Shown: positions 12,009 through 18,568 of the stretch, in pieces | How positions within the stretch are numbered: the stretch's first letter is position 1 | How the letters are laid out: the number at the start of each line of letters is the position of its first letter | DNA from: Armatimonadota bacterium | Lineage (GTDB): Bacteria > Armatimonadota > Hebobacteria > GCA-020354555 > CP070648 | Direction of reading: 5' to 3' | Assembly: GCA_035527535.1 (NCBI GenBank) | Contig: DATLAK010000076.1 | Location: forward strand, 1 to 35,843 | Length of the DNA: 35,843 nt | The notes under the pieces: model-generated | Seen by the model: only the letters and a program-made list of their open reading frames with translations | Database searches by the model: none | Told to the model about the DNA's origin: nothing | Made by a program: the position numbers and the translations under genes

Positions 12009-12196
12009 GACGGGAGCCGGGAGCGGCGACTAAGCGGGTGCCAAGTGGGATGTGTCCCTCGCAGGAGACGCGGCGACAGAGGACTTGACACCTTTGAGGC
12101 CGAACAAACAGTAACGCTTCGCGCCCCGGCAGCAGCTTCGGCCACGCCAGAGGCGTGCGAGTCTCGCAGGGACAACGCACCATTGAGGAGACGCGC

Positions 12197-12412
12197 ATGG
12201 AATTCACGGTTATCCTGGAAGAGGGCGAGGGTGGCTACATCATCGCCAGTTGTCCATCGCTCCCCGGCTGCCACACCCAGGGTAAGACGGAAGCGGAAGC
12301 GCTCGCCAACATCCGCGAGGCTATCGTCGCCTGCCTGCTTACCATGAATGACCGGGCGCGCCGCGAGGCGGAGAAGAGCAAGAAGCGTCGCTCCGTCGAG
12401 GTGCTAGTGTGA
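12197..12412 (+). CDS. hicB: HicB-family antitoxin
   Basis: A 71-residue protein with the HicB beta-alpha fold: MEFTVILEEGEGGYIIAS, then CPSLPGCHTQGKTEAEAL and IREAIVACLL. HicB folds over the HicA ribonuclease and blocks it. No helix-turn-helix or ribbon-helix-helix follows the fold; the tail is simply basic (KSKKRR). DNA binding for autoregulation is therefore not obvious. GAGGAG precedes the ATG at 12197. The antitoxin gene comes first, 19 bases before hicA. A TTGACA at 12085-12090 with a poor -10 may be its promoter. Confidence 0.88.
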   Translation: MEFTVILEEGEGGYIIASCPSLPGCHTQGKTEAEALANIREAIVACLLTMNDRARREAEKSKKRRSVEVLV

Positions 12413-12431
12413 GGCCCGAGGCGCACAAGTA

Positions 12432-12671
12432 GTGGCCCGGCTACCAGTCATCTCCGGCGACGAGGCCATCAGGGCGTTCGAGAAAGCTGGCTGGGTAAGG
12501 CGGCGGCAGGTGGGCAGCCATGTTGCGCTCGACAAGGAAGGCGAAGGCGCGACTCTCGCGGTGCCGAGGCACCGCGAATTGGACAAGGGTCTGCTGCGCC
12601 GTCTCATCAGGGACGCAGGTCTGAGCATAGACGGGTTTGTCGCGCTGCTGGGGAGAAGAACGGTGCGCTGA
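12432..12671 (+). CDS. hicA: HicA-family mRNA interferase toxin
   Basis: A 79-residue protein with the double-stranded-RNA-binding-like HicA fold. It shows GDEAIRAFEKAGW, then RRRQVGSHVALDK with the catalytic His of the GSH motif, then VPRHRELDKGLLRRLIRDAG. HicA toxins cleave mRNA and tmRNA independently of the ribosome. All family landmarks and the usual length are present, so it is probably active. The start codon is GTG at 12432 with only a weak ribosome site, which fits low toxin expression. It follows hicB by 19 bases. Confidence 0.88.
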   Translation: MARLPVISGDEAIRAFEKAGWVRRRQVGSHVALDKEGEGATLAVPRHRELDKGLLRRLIRDAGLSIDGFVALLGRRTVR

Positions 12672-14984: not shown

Positions 14985-16706
14985 CTACGCTCGCGCGCCG
15001 TGCTGACGCAAGAGCGCCGCGACGCTTCTGTCCCTGGCGAAGTGAAACGGGGTCATGCCGTCATCGTTTTGCGCGTCGGCATCGGCGCCGGCGGCCAGCA
15101 GCGCTTTCGCCGTTTCCGCATCACCTTTGGCAGACGCGTAGTGCAGAGCCGTCCAACCGCGGAGCCCACCGGCGTTGACATCCGCTCCCGCCGCGATCAG
15201 GAGCTTCACGCTTTCGGCGTCGCGCCGCACGCTGGCCCGCAGCAGCGCCGTCCAGCCGTCTCGGGACCTGGCGCTGACATCGGCGCCAGCCGCCACCAAC
15301 GCGGACAAGGTTTCACTGGCACTGGCGCCATGACCGGATGCGTCTCTCGCCAAGGGGCCGCACCATGCGCCGGCAAGGGCCAGCGGCGTCGCGCCGTCCT
15401 TGTCCTTGGTGTTCACCTTGGCGCCCGCCGCTAGAAGTGCCCTCACTGACGCGGCATTGCCGCACTCGGCGGCGTAGTGCAGGGCGGTGCGACCGCTTCG
15501 GTCTGCGGCGTTAGCGTCGGCCCCCGCGGTTAGCAGCAACTCAAGGATCTCACTGCGGGCGCCCACCGCCGCGGCTCGGAGTGCGGCGGATATGCCGCGG
15601 CCGTTAGTCGCGTTCGCGTCCGCGCCGTGCGCCAAGAGCAAAGCCACGGTGCGGGGACTGCGCGAAGTAACTGCGCTGAGCAGGAGCCCGGACGGTCCGC
15701 CCGCCGTGGACTGCATCCTTGCCCCGTGGGCGAGCAAGAGCGCCAGGCACTGGGGATCCTTCTTGAAGACAGCCCAGTCTAGGGGCGTGCAGCCGAACTT
15801 GTCGCGGTGGTTCGCATCAGCCCCGCGCGCCAATAGCAGCTTGACGGCCTCGGGGGACTTGCAGGCGGCATACGCGAGGGGCGACCAGCCTCGCTTATCG
15901 GCCGCGTTGATGTCCGCGCCTTTGGCCAGCAGGCGCGCGACGGCGGCCGCGTCCCCACGCGAAGCCGCCCGGTGCAGCGGCGGCATCCGCGCCCCTTCGT
16001 CGCGCCCGAGATACCAGAAGGTCGCCAGCAACACCGCGGTCCCGCCCAGCATGAGCAGCATCCACCCACGCTGGCGCCTGCCCTGGGCGCCAGCGGGCGG
16101 CGCGCGCAAAGCGGTGCCGTCACCGCATTCCACGCAATCGTGCAGCCCAAGTCGTCGCGGCCGCGCCGCCCACAGGAATTGCAGCACCCCCGCCGCCAGC
16201 AGCGCCATTGCCCCGAATACCGCCAGGTCGGCGACGTTGTACGCGAAGTCTCCGGACTTGCCGAACTCGAGGAAGTCCACGCTGTAGCCGAGGCGGACGC
16301 GGTCAAGCAGGATCGCCAGCAGACCACCCCCCAGCAATGCGCACCCGCACTCCGTCAGCACCGACACGCGATACCGCCGACGCACCAGCCGCGGGTAGAG
16401 CACCGCCAGCGCCGCCACCAGTCCCACCGTTGTCGCCAGCAGAGACGGCGAGGACCCGCCGAATCCCAGCCCCATATTCTTCATGTAGGCGATGCGCAGC
16501 CATCCGCCGAAGAACGACGGGGTCGGGTAATGCCACCCATGGCGCATCACCAGCGCCTTCGTCGCCTGGTCGAGCAGGCACACGCCGAGGGCCACCACCA
16601 GCCAGCGCCGGGGCGAACCGAAGCGGCAAAGGTACACCGCCAGCACCGCGATCAGCAAGATCGCGCCCACGATGGGTTGGATCAGCCCCGGTCTCATGGA
16701 TAGCAT
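14985..16706 (-). CDS. signal peptidase II (LspA)-ankyrin repeat fusion
   Basis: A 573-residue fusion. Residues about 30-180 form a lipoprotein signal peptidase II domain: LLDQATK with Asp46, KNMGLGFG with Asn77, VDF with Asp144, and YNVAD with Asn157 and Asp160. The two catalytic aspartates expected for LspA (144 and 160) are both there; the usual NxxDR is changed to ILLDR. One extra helix precedes the four LspA helices. A basic linker with CVEC follows. A sixth helix (about 215-233) comes next, then ten ankyrin repeats (about 243-573; typical HYAAECGN and LLAAGADVN motifs). Positive-inside charges place the ankyrins on the periplasmic side. Ordinary LspA is about 160 residues. ATG at 16706 has GGAAGAG upstream; a TTG precedes it. 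It stands alone, divergent from the sigma-fusion gene. Confidence 0.85.
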   Translation of the reverse strand: MLSMRPGLIQPIVGAILLIAVLAVYLCRFGSPRRWLVVALGVCLLDQATKALVMRHGWHYPTPSFFGGWLRIAYMKNMGLGFGGSSPSLLATTVGLVAALAVLYPRLVRRRYRVSVLTECGCALLGGGLLAILLDRVRLGYSVDFLEFGKSGDFAYNVADLAVFGAMALLAAGVLQFLWAARPRRLGLHDCVECGDGTALRAPPAGAQGRRQRGWMLLMLGGTAVLLATFWYLGRDEGARMPPLHRAASRGDAAAVARLLAKGADINAADKRGWSPLAYAACKSPEAVKLLLARGADANHRDKFGCTPLDWAVFKKDPQCLALLLAHGARMQSTAGGPSGLLLSAVTSRSPRTVALLLAHGADANATNGRGISAALRAAAVGARSEILELLLTAGADANAADRSGRTALHYAAECGNAASVRALLAAGAKVNTKDKDGATPLALAGAWCGPLARDASGHGASASETLSALVAAGADVSARSRDGWTALLRASVRRDAESVKLLIAAGADVNAGGLRGWTALHYASAKGDAETAKALLAAGADADAQNDDGMTPFHFARDRSVAALLRQHGARA

Positions 16707-17167
16707 CAAGGACTCTTCCGCGTAGGGTCACACCCGAGTGGCTAGGCCGCAAGGGCCGCCACGGCGGTCATCAGATGGCTCGGATGACCCAGCCGCGGTC
16801 ACGCCGGGTCCCGCTACCAGGAAGCGGCGCGCGTCCGTTCGGCGCATGTCTCAATTATTCCGCATCCGCGCCCACTGACGGCAGTGGAGCTACAGGCCGT
16901 GGGCGGCAGGATACGCGGCATCCGGTGCCGTAACCACGCATACATTCGCATTCCCGAAGGAGCCGCCATGAGGGAATCATCACCCACCCATCCGCGCGCG
17001 CTGGTGGCGCAGCCGTCCCGGCTGCGAAGTGGCTGGCGGGCGGGACGCCCGCCCCACCGCGCGGTGGACGTCATCGCCACGAGGCGCGTTTGGCCCCCGG
17101 GCGCAGCGGCCGCAATTCGCAGTTCCGGGACTCGGCTGGATTGCATCAATAGCAGCAGAGAGCGAAG
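16707..17167. other. intergenic region between divergent genes
   Basis: This 461-base gap separates the LspA-ankyrin gene (minus) from the sigma-fusion gene (plus). It must hold both promoters, but no strong -35/-10 or -24/-12 pair was seen. A small reading frame (ATG 16968, GAAGGAG upstream, stop at 17190-17192) spans the gap but consists largely of repeat sequence and is not accepted as a gene. The twin-hairpin repeat at 17008-17053 is the main structure. Confidence 0.5.
17008..17053. repeat. twin 8-bp hairpins
   Basis: Two perfect stems lie side by side: CGCAGCCG/CGGCTGCG (17008-17026, 3-base loop) and GGCGGGCG/CGCCCGCC (17035-17053, 3-base loop). The first resembles the CACAGCCG element seen twice elsewhere. 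They look like REP-type dispersed repeats in the leader of the sigma-fusion gene. Confidence 0.5.
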
Positions 17168-18568
17168 TTGGCGGCCACCGACGCGAGCCTGATAAGAGCG
17201 TGCCTCGCCGGCGAGATCGAAGCATTCGGCGAACTCGTTGAGCGCTATCGCAACGCGGTCTACGGGCTGTGCTACGCGCGGGTGGGGGATTTCGAACAGG
17301 CGCGTGACCTGGCGCAGGACAGCTTCGTGTCGGCATACCGGGCGTTGGGCCAACTGCGGGAGCCGGAGCGCTTTCCTGCGTGGCTGCGGACGATCGCCGA
17401 TAACATCTGTAAGGCCGCGCTGCGGCGCCGGCAATCGCCCGAAGAATCATTGGAGGAGAAGGCGCTGCCCGCTGCGGGCGATGTCGCGGAAGAGGTAAGC
17501 GTTCGCCTCGCCGTGCAGGCGGCGCTGCGATCCCTGCCTGAGGACAACCGCCTGGTCGTTTCGCTGTTCTATGTGAACGGCTACACCTGCGACGAAATCG
17601 GAGAGTTCCTGTCGGTACCCGCCAGCACGGTCAAGGGCCGGTTGCGCGCGGGTAGAGCCAGGCTGCGGCGGCGCCTCGCGCCGCTGGTGCCAGAGCTGTT
17701 CCGGGAGAAAGCGCTGCCGCCGGAATTCGGAGGTGAAGTGATGCAACGGATTGGCAAGGTCGAGCTGCGACGGCAGCACTCCGCACCCGTTGTCGTGCTG
17801 AGTACTGAGGCGGGACTAGAGCTTCCCATCTGGATTGGCGAGACTGAAGCCACGGCGCTGTGGCTCGAGCTGGGCGAGAAAACGACGCCCCGCCCCATGA
17901 CCTACGACGTCTTCCTCGAGGCGCTTTCGGCTTTCGGTGTCAGCGTGGAGCGCGTCGAAGTCGCGGAGATCCGCGACACCACGTACATCGCGAGCGTCGC
18001 ATTGAGGCGGGGCGGCGAGACGAAGACTCTGGACGCACGTCCCAGCGATGCCATCAACATCGCTCTGCGGGCCAAGGCGCCTATCTTCGTCAGCGATTCG
18101 CTCGCCAGCATCGTAGACGGACATCCGGCGATGACCGCGGGAATGGCAGAGTTCCAGCCGAAAGAGGCCGGGCCTGTTGTGATATGTACCGGGCATGTCT
18201 TGACGCGAGGTTCGTCGTGGGTAGCAGAGGGGTGCGAGCCCATCCTCCGAGTCGTACGCGTCATCCTCGGCGCGGCCGTGCGTGAGCAAGCAGACCTGAT
18301 TTCCATTCGCCCCGACCGGAAGCGCGCGGACGCGGTGTCGGTTCATTTCCGAATAGGTAGGGAACGTAAGGAGCGCATGAGCATCCCGGTTTATGTGCTT
18401 GCGCCCCTGCGCGAATGCCTGGCCGAGATGGCGGGCGTGGAGCTCAGGCCCGGCGCGCGGCGCCAGACTGGCACCATCCACGCCGTCATCGAAGAGCAGG
18501 GCCGTGACTTTCGGGTGACCTTCAGCCCCACCGCCATCACCATCAAGCCGATGCCCGCAGCACCGTGA
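17168..18568 (+). CDS. ECF sigma factor fused to bifunctional-nuclease and GspE/PilB-N-like domains
   Basis: A 466-residue protein with three parts. Residues about 8-88 are a sigma-70 region 2 (AFGELVERYRNAVYGLCY, ARDLAQDSFVSAYRAL). Residues about 115-170 are region 4 (SLPEDNRLVVSLFYVNGYT, then STVKGRLRAGRARLRRRL). Residues about 192-318 are a bifunctional-nuclease (BFN/DUF151) domain with LPIWIGETEATAL, RPMTYDVFLEAL and DARPSDAINIALR. Residues about 357-458 resemble the N-terminal lobe of GspE/PilB ATPases: ILRVVRVILGAAVREQADLI and SIRP correspond to the family's ASDIHIEP helix-strand, followed by VSVHFRIG and MAGVELRPGARRQTGTI. No Walker motor follows. The start is TTG at 17168 with AGAG upstream. 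No anti-sigma gene is adjacent, so the fused domains may replace one. This is inference. Confidence 0.85.
   Translation: MAATDASLIRACLAGEIEAFGELVERYRNAVYGLCYARVGDFEQARDLAQDSFVSAYRALGQLREPERFPAWLRTIADNICKAALRRRQSPEESLEEKALPAAGDVAEEVSVRLAVQAALRSLPEDNRLVVSLFYVNGYTCDEIGEFLSVPASTVKGRLRAGRARLRRRLAPLVPELFREKALPPEFGGEVMQRIGKVELRRQHSAPVVVLSTEAGLELPIWIGETEATALWLELGEKTTPRPMTYDVFLEALSAFGVSVERVEVAEIRDTTYIASVALRRGGETKTLDARPSDAINIALRAKAPIFVSDSLASIVDGHPAMTAGMAEFQPKEAGPVVICTGHVLTRGSSWVAEGCEPILRVVRVILGAAVREQADLISIRPDRKRADAVSVHFRIGRERKERMSIPVYVLAPLRECLAEMAGVELRPGARRQTGTIHAVIEEQGRDFRVTFSPTAITIKPMPAAP

Follow-up and report, generated by a model that had tools for sequence, protein, structure and literature searches.

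Signal peptidase II, or LspA, is regarded as a housekeeping enzyme with one job and as an antibiotic target. Its family (PF01252, TIGR00077; structures 5dir, 6ryo and 6ryp) is built on a four-helix core with beta-cradle strands and carries the motifs DQxxK, a second motif with an asparagine, DR, VDF and NxAD, the last two of which hold the catalytic aspartates. For the S. aureus enzyme 14 highly conserved residues have been given, and the mutants D118N, D136N and R110A have 0% activity, N133A 3% and N52A 7% (Olatunji et al. 2020, PMC6952399). Organisms that make LspA inhibitors have additional lspA copies, a precedent for second copies that are insensitive to such compounds (PMC8689077). As for ankyrin repeats outside the cytoplasm, KatB of Pseudomonas aeruginosa is reported to need AnkB, an ankyrin-like protein of the periplasm, for optimal activity (Howell 2000, as cited in PMC2830190).

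Here a gene is described that joins these two elements in one protein, termed LspA2-Ank. It lies within a 35,843-nucleotide stretch of Armatimonadota DNA (the window), which is contig C76 of a 3.24-Mb draft genome in 192 contigs (G000). Positions 14985-16709 of the minus strand form a single uninterrupted open reading frame encoding 574 residues from a TTG at 16709 or 573 from an ATG at 16706, with a Shine-Dalgarno-like GGAAGAG that ends 6 bases 5' of the ATG; the gene, as supported by frame and Pfam, is given as 14985..16706, and all features below are on the same strand. (Residue numbers count from the TTG and are 1 higher than the ATG-based numbers of the preliminary description.) Pfam assigns residues 40-174 to Peptidase_A8 (E 1.7e-20; 74.2 bits against a cut-off of 25) and the region from about residue 244 to the C-terminus to ankyrin families (best E 8.7e-54), which bears out the original description of an LspA domain fused to ten ankyrin repeats. 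The core, also recognised by profile match, occupies 16188..16592. The repeats (residues 243-574; 14988..15983), delimited by Pfam, an AlphaFold2 model, fold search and repeat alignment, start at residues 243, 274, 306, 340, 373, 406, 439, 485, 518 and 551, and the seventh contains a longer insertion. Two further helices flank the core: one after it (residues 208-236; 16002..16088), which was already noted and is supported by hydropathy, by AlphaFold2 and by a second fusion laid out alike, and another hydrophobic helix before it (residues 10-29; 16623..16682), which had been overlooked and is indicated by hydropathy, alignment and the AlphaFold2 model, of low confidence there.

Judged by its domains, the gene is a new architecture within a known enzyme family. 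The preliminary description knew of no such fusion, and no report of an LspA (or signal peptidase II)-ankyrin fusion was found in open-licence PMC texts, which leaves room for a prior report elsewhere. A single frame combines an LspA domain with a different protein also at locus L051 (444-3689, 1082 aa); unlike LspA2-Ank, however, this is an ordinary LspA with the motif NLIDR, whose N-terminus is joined to isoleucyl-tRNA synthetase.

A second gene ordered as extra helix, LspA core, extra helix and ankyrins occurs in Armatimonadetes bacterium CS1-C002 (G008, contig WVXJ01000104.1). The LspA parts of the two fusions are 54% identical and their ankyrin parts share 150 of 330 residues (45%), collinearly from the first repeat to the last, the G008 fusion being closer to the ankyrin half of the window gene than every other ankyrin protein compared. 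This collinearity implies that the fusion arose in a common ancestor of the two families, or was transferred as a whole gene, and was then maintained. Because a separate metagenome-assembled genome encodes an equal architecture, the false join of two genes that had been named as a possible refutation is ruled out. More generally, that an assembly error or frame artefact joins two genes has a negligible probability: G000 is a many-contig draft, but no support for such an error was found, the frame is open, the GC3 values of the two halves are alike (0.86 and 0.80), and the same layout recurs in G008. The fusion is known from these two genomes only. It is not present in G001, a family relative of G000 whose genome is one contig, and no LspA-ankyrin fusions beyond the two were recognised among the matches listed for 291 Armatimonadota genomes. 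Of the other long LspA frames in Armatimonadota that were considered as candidates, L105, L106 and L107 result from read-through in a shadow frame of the upstream gene, and L138 is actually an IleS-LspA frame. No relatives of the fusion were found in viral contigs, and a phage or mobile origin was rejected on that ground.

G000 holds two more LspA-like genes, namely an ordinary copy on contig C33 beside an ileS-like gene--the second lspA for which the preliminary description had advised a search--and a divergent third copy on contig C84. Because an ordinary lspA adjoins ileS in the same genome, the fusion product is not the housekeeping LspA. A maximum-likelihood tree sets ten sequences, termed here LspA2, apart (support 100/100) from ordinary LspA, both that of this class and that of other phyla, and pairs the LspA halves of the two ankyrin fusions with support of 92/77. 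A profile built from eight LspA2 sequences gives its own members 258-336 bits, the G000 C84 and G001 copies 123-149 bits and ordinary LspA at most 85 bits, leaving a clear gap; among solved LspA structures it matches 6ryo (E 2.8e-13) and 5dir (E 2.9e-12). Of the 14 genomes in the class, 8 carry LspA2; these belong to families f1, f3 and f4, and f2 lacks it. When contigs of 84,980 species were scanned, the best matches after members of the class were ordinary LspA proteins at about 27-38% identity. By tree, profile and scan, then, LspA2 is a paralogue clade found only in one Armatimonadota class, and nearly all other Armatimonadota genomes have a single ordinary lspA. The unfused members (51-57% identity) and a further G008 copy, G008b, share with LspA2-Ank the extra N-terminal helix, which is common to the clade and missing from ordinary LspA, and the motif IxxDR; they differ from it in having no ankyrins, in having nnrDE upstream, and in having a zincin-like protein, predicted to be cytoplasmic, either downstream or fused. 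Two estimates for unfused LspA2 (dN 0.09 with dS 0.60, and dN 0.15 with dS 0.77) correspond to purifying selection. One genome of another Armatimonadota family (G249; L137, G249:C211) has a second divergent LspA that has an extra N-terminal helix and keeps the Asn106 of NxxDR; it is possibly an outgroup to LspA2.

Against the TIGR00077 lspA model the window protein reaches 43.8 bits, the G008 fusion 46.9, G012b 52.9 and the G000 C84 copy 37.6. Because 43.8 bits falls below the NCBI equivalog cut-off of 73.95, whereas the ordinary G000 copy scores 94.9, the window protein is not an lspA equivalog; it is accordingly placed within the A8 superfamily but outside the orthologous lipoprotein signal peptidases.

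The motifs originally read in the window gene (DQATK, KNMGLGFG, SVDF, YNVAD and ILLDR) are present as stated, and its catalytic residues, formerly Asp144 and Asp160, are Asp145 (16275..16277; Asp118 of S. aureus LspA, in the VVDF motif) and Asp161 (16227..16229; Asp136, in the NxAD motif). The protein keeps 11 of the 14 conserved residues, the exceptions being Asn106 to Ile, Val116 to Ser and Phe132 to Tyr. Residue mapping (PMC6952399) places ILLDR (residues 133-137; 16299..16313) in the position of NxxDR, with Ile133 corresponding to Asn106, and with Asp109 and the essential Arg110 retained. Across all ten LspA2 proteins the equivalents of Asp21, Asn52, Gly102, Arg110, Asp118, Asn133 and Asp136 are invariant, and the Lys25 position is Lys or Arg. 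The Asn106 position, by contrast, is occupied by Ile in nine proteins and by Leu in the tenth, as against Asn in all 38 ordinary LspA sequences compared; the Gly54 position, unchanged in those 38, is Gly, Ala, Glu or Leu; and the Phe132 position is mostly Tyr. The change of Val116 to Ser is confined to the window gene, and Asp109 is lost in the two f1 copies G001c and G000c. Because the ordinary sequences were picked with patterns around VDF and NxAD, their conservation at those motifs is partly built in, which is not so for Asn106 and Gly54. In these alignments IxxDR is a clade-wide signature and not the quirk of a single gene. This strengthens the early suggestion that ILLDR marks a specialised enzyme, in that the motif typifies a class-restricted clade in which none of the ten members has Asn106; that the protein acts as an enzyme is probable from its residues. 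Retention of the catalytic residues together with a changed pocket is more readily explained by a specialised peptidase than by a dead enzyme.

The AlphaFold2 model of the fusion (mean pLDDT 84, with low values N-terminal to residue 30 and at about 191-196) predicts helices at residues 10-29, 34-56, 87-110, 117-140, 159-190 and 208-236 and strands at 71-78, 143-149 and 155-157, in beta-cradle order, followed by the ankyrins. The order of helices and strands is thus predicted to be that of LspA. A full-length fold search was swamped by the ankyrins, matching ankyrin structures (e.g., 6mol, rmsd 2.6) and returning no other matches; the model of the paralogue G008b superposes on S. aureus LspA 6ryp with a TM-score of 0.76 over the target and an rmsd of 2.4. 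Arginines cluster in the loop that joins helices one and two and in those following helices three and five; the remaining loops have no such clusters. Because these arginine-rich segments would be cytoplasmic, because the orientation of LspA is known and because one helix is added after the core, the ankyrins are predicted to lie on the periplasmic side, in agreement with the earlier charge-based placement. The free-standing proteins nearest to the ankyrin half (in G013, G010 and G003) are small and have one N-terminal membrane helix, an anchor that is consistent with a periplasmic ankyrin domain.

Elsewhere in the class, L112 (G011) and L119 (G005) encode spermidine-synthase-like membrane proteins that have several helices and end in ankyrin repeats, and each of the f2 genomes G002, G004 and G006 gives 19-24 ankyrin matches. 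Hence the class often attaches ankyrins to membrane proteins, a habit that the preliminary description had missed; the ankyrin part of the fusion may be a generic module, and any claim that it is tailored to LspA is tempered accordingly. Three single-helix anchored ankyrin proteins (L126:4333-5343, L127:5494-6450 and L128:4620-6095) align collinearly with the fusion's ankyrin half, and the gene for each adjoins one for a similar exported-looking protein with the motif AL.GG.T.AR..... Legionella ankyrin proteins were rejected as an identity for this half: the NCBIfam matches are far below cut-off and reflect the generic ankyrin consensus.

Within the window the fusion stands alone between two plus-strand genes, one for a TMEM260-like glycosyltransferase and one for a sigma-factor/bifunctional-nuclease fusion; the G008 fusion lies before genes for a membrane protein of 272 residues and a type II secretion-like ATPase. 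The two fusions have no neighbours in common and therefore indicate no partner. Synteny was also rejected as a functional guide, the two flanking genes of the window showing no shared neighbourhood in G001, G008, G010 or G012. The flanking sigma-factor gene (17168-18568, plus strand) encodes a protein that unites regions 2 and 4 of an ECF-type sigma factor with a bifunctional-nuclease (BFN) domain and a C-terminal domain, the last being matched by separate homologues over residues 353-458; the window also encodes a HicB-HicA type toxin-antitoxin pair (12155-12671, plus strand).

The unfused LspA2 genes have a partner, which, like the paralogues themselves, the preliminary description had overlooked. 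In G003, G005, G007, G010 and G012 LspA2 lies downstream of nnrDE, with a short gene resembling acpS in sequence ahead in several genomes. In five f3 genomes it is followed, often with overlap, by a gene for a zincin-like protein of 139-158 residues with HE[LI][FY]HH and a downstream Glu (L015:1926-2369, L016:5042-5461, L017:5967-6386, L018:1608-2039 and L019:6402-6839); in G008b (L013:5414-6469) this protein, predicted to be cytoplasmic, is fused to the C-terminus of LspA2. The partner has no NCBIfam match and a weak match to Pfam Zincin_1 (E 0.017, below cut-off), and the zincin half of G008b has no PDB match by fold search, so that the HExxHH...E layout and the Zincin_1 match are the grounds for a putative ImmA/IrrE-like identity. 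Beside the f1 copies of G001 and G000 C84 the partner is retained but HExxH is gone (ATEIFRYLQ, AIELYRYLE; L102:6420-6974, L014:5353-5910). Its decay, together with the loss of Asp109 from f1 LspA2, makes the two proteins appear to have co-evolved; the f1 changes correspond to joint decay or to a changed role. LspA2 and the zincin seem to form a pair of peptidases, as yet undescribed, in an nnrDE operon. The ankyrin form has no zincin; its added helix would instead switch the membrane side.

The reading favoured here, at a probability of about one half, is that LspA2-Ank is an intramembrane aspartyl peptidase that has become specialised, with a changed specificity, and that its ankyrin solenoid lies in the periplasm and binds there to a client or regulator. 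The core would be a four-helix membrane aspartyl peptidase with its two aspartates where the inner membrane meets the periplasm; the post-core helix would bring the chain back to the periplasm, where the ten repeats would form a solenoid beside the active site. The housekeeping LspA beside ileS would carry out ordinary lipoprotein maturation, and LspA2-Ank would be a second active peptidase with an altered pocket (Asn106 to Ile, and Gly54 variable in the clade), the solenoid binding a particular periplasmic client or regulator and either delivering it to the peptidase or gating the peptidase. AnkB would be a likeness in that its periplasmic ankyrin repeats support an enzyme; it differs in being a separate protein with an unrelated partner and no peptidase fusion. 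That the ankyrins hold lipoprotein substrates, as first proposed, is a guess. A broader and decidedly tentative proposal is that LspA2 represents a new branch of intramembrane aspartyl peptidases, freed from lipoprotein signal peptides and serving as a module for regulated proteolysis, in which most members would be paired with or fused to a cytoplasmic zincin (a two-peptidase relay), and in the ankyrin form its place would be taken by ankyrins acting in the periplasm as a receptor to sense or recruit clients.

The specialised-peptidase reading has to contend with the fact that Asn106 is among the 14 conserved LspA residues, so that its loss could reduce cleavage. LspA2 might accordingly be inactive or a very poor cutter and serve to display the solenoid, the working part, either as a membrane anchor or as a pseudo-enzyme that binds lipoproteins. 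This is a possibility held at low confidence, one with which the clade-wide loss of Asn106, the loss of Asp109 in G001c and G000c, the variable Gly54, the sub-equivalog score and the occurrence of ankyrins on a single plain membrane anchor in class-mates all agree; yet both catalytic aspartates and other essential residues are invariant in ten divergent proteins, which a dead scaffold would not need, and a one-helix anchor would suffice, as the free-standing relatives indicate. The mostly intact pocket and the frequency of ankyrin-membrane protein fusions in the class would also suit a redundant, ordinary lipoprotein signal peptidase with a chance ankyrin tail of no special importance. Such redundancy is unlikely, given that the ten repeats and added helix are collinear over their full length across two families, that Asn106 is lost throughout the clade, and that the genome already has a housekeeping copy. 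Changed pocket residues might, finally, make LspA2-Ank an inhibitor-insensitive second LspA that guards against globomycin-like compounds, like LspA3/LspA4 of Myxococcus xanthus; this is quite improbable, as the neighbours examined include no biosynthetic cluster and as it leaves both the ankyrins and the zincin partners of the unfused copies unexplained.

On the favoured reading LspA2-Ank would be a rare enzyme bearing an ankyrin solenoid at the periplasmic face. The LspA2 set, with its unfused, zincin-fused, ankyrin-fused and decayed members, offers natural material for testing what determines LspA specificity. More generally, a clade that has kept the catalytic dyad, changed the pocket and gained binding or protease partners suggests that the LspA fold has been reused at least once.
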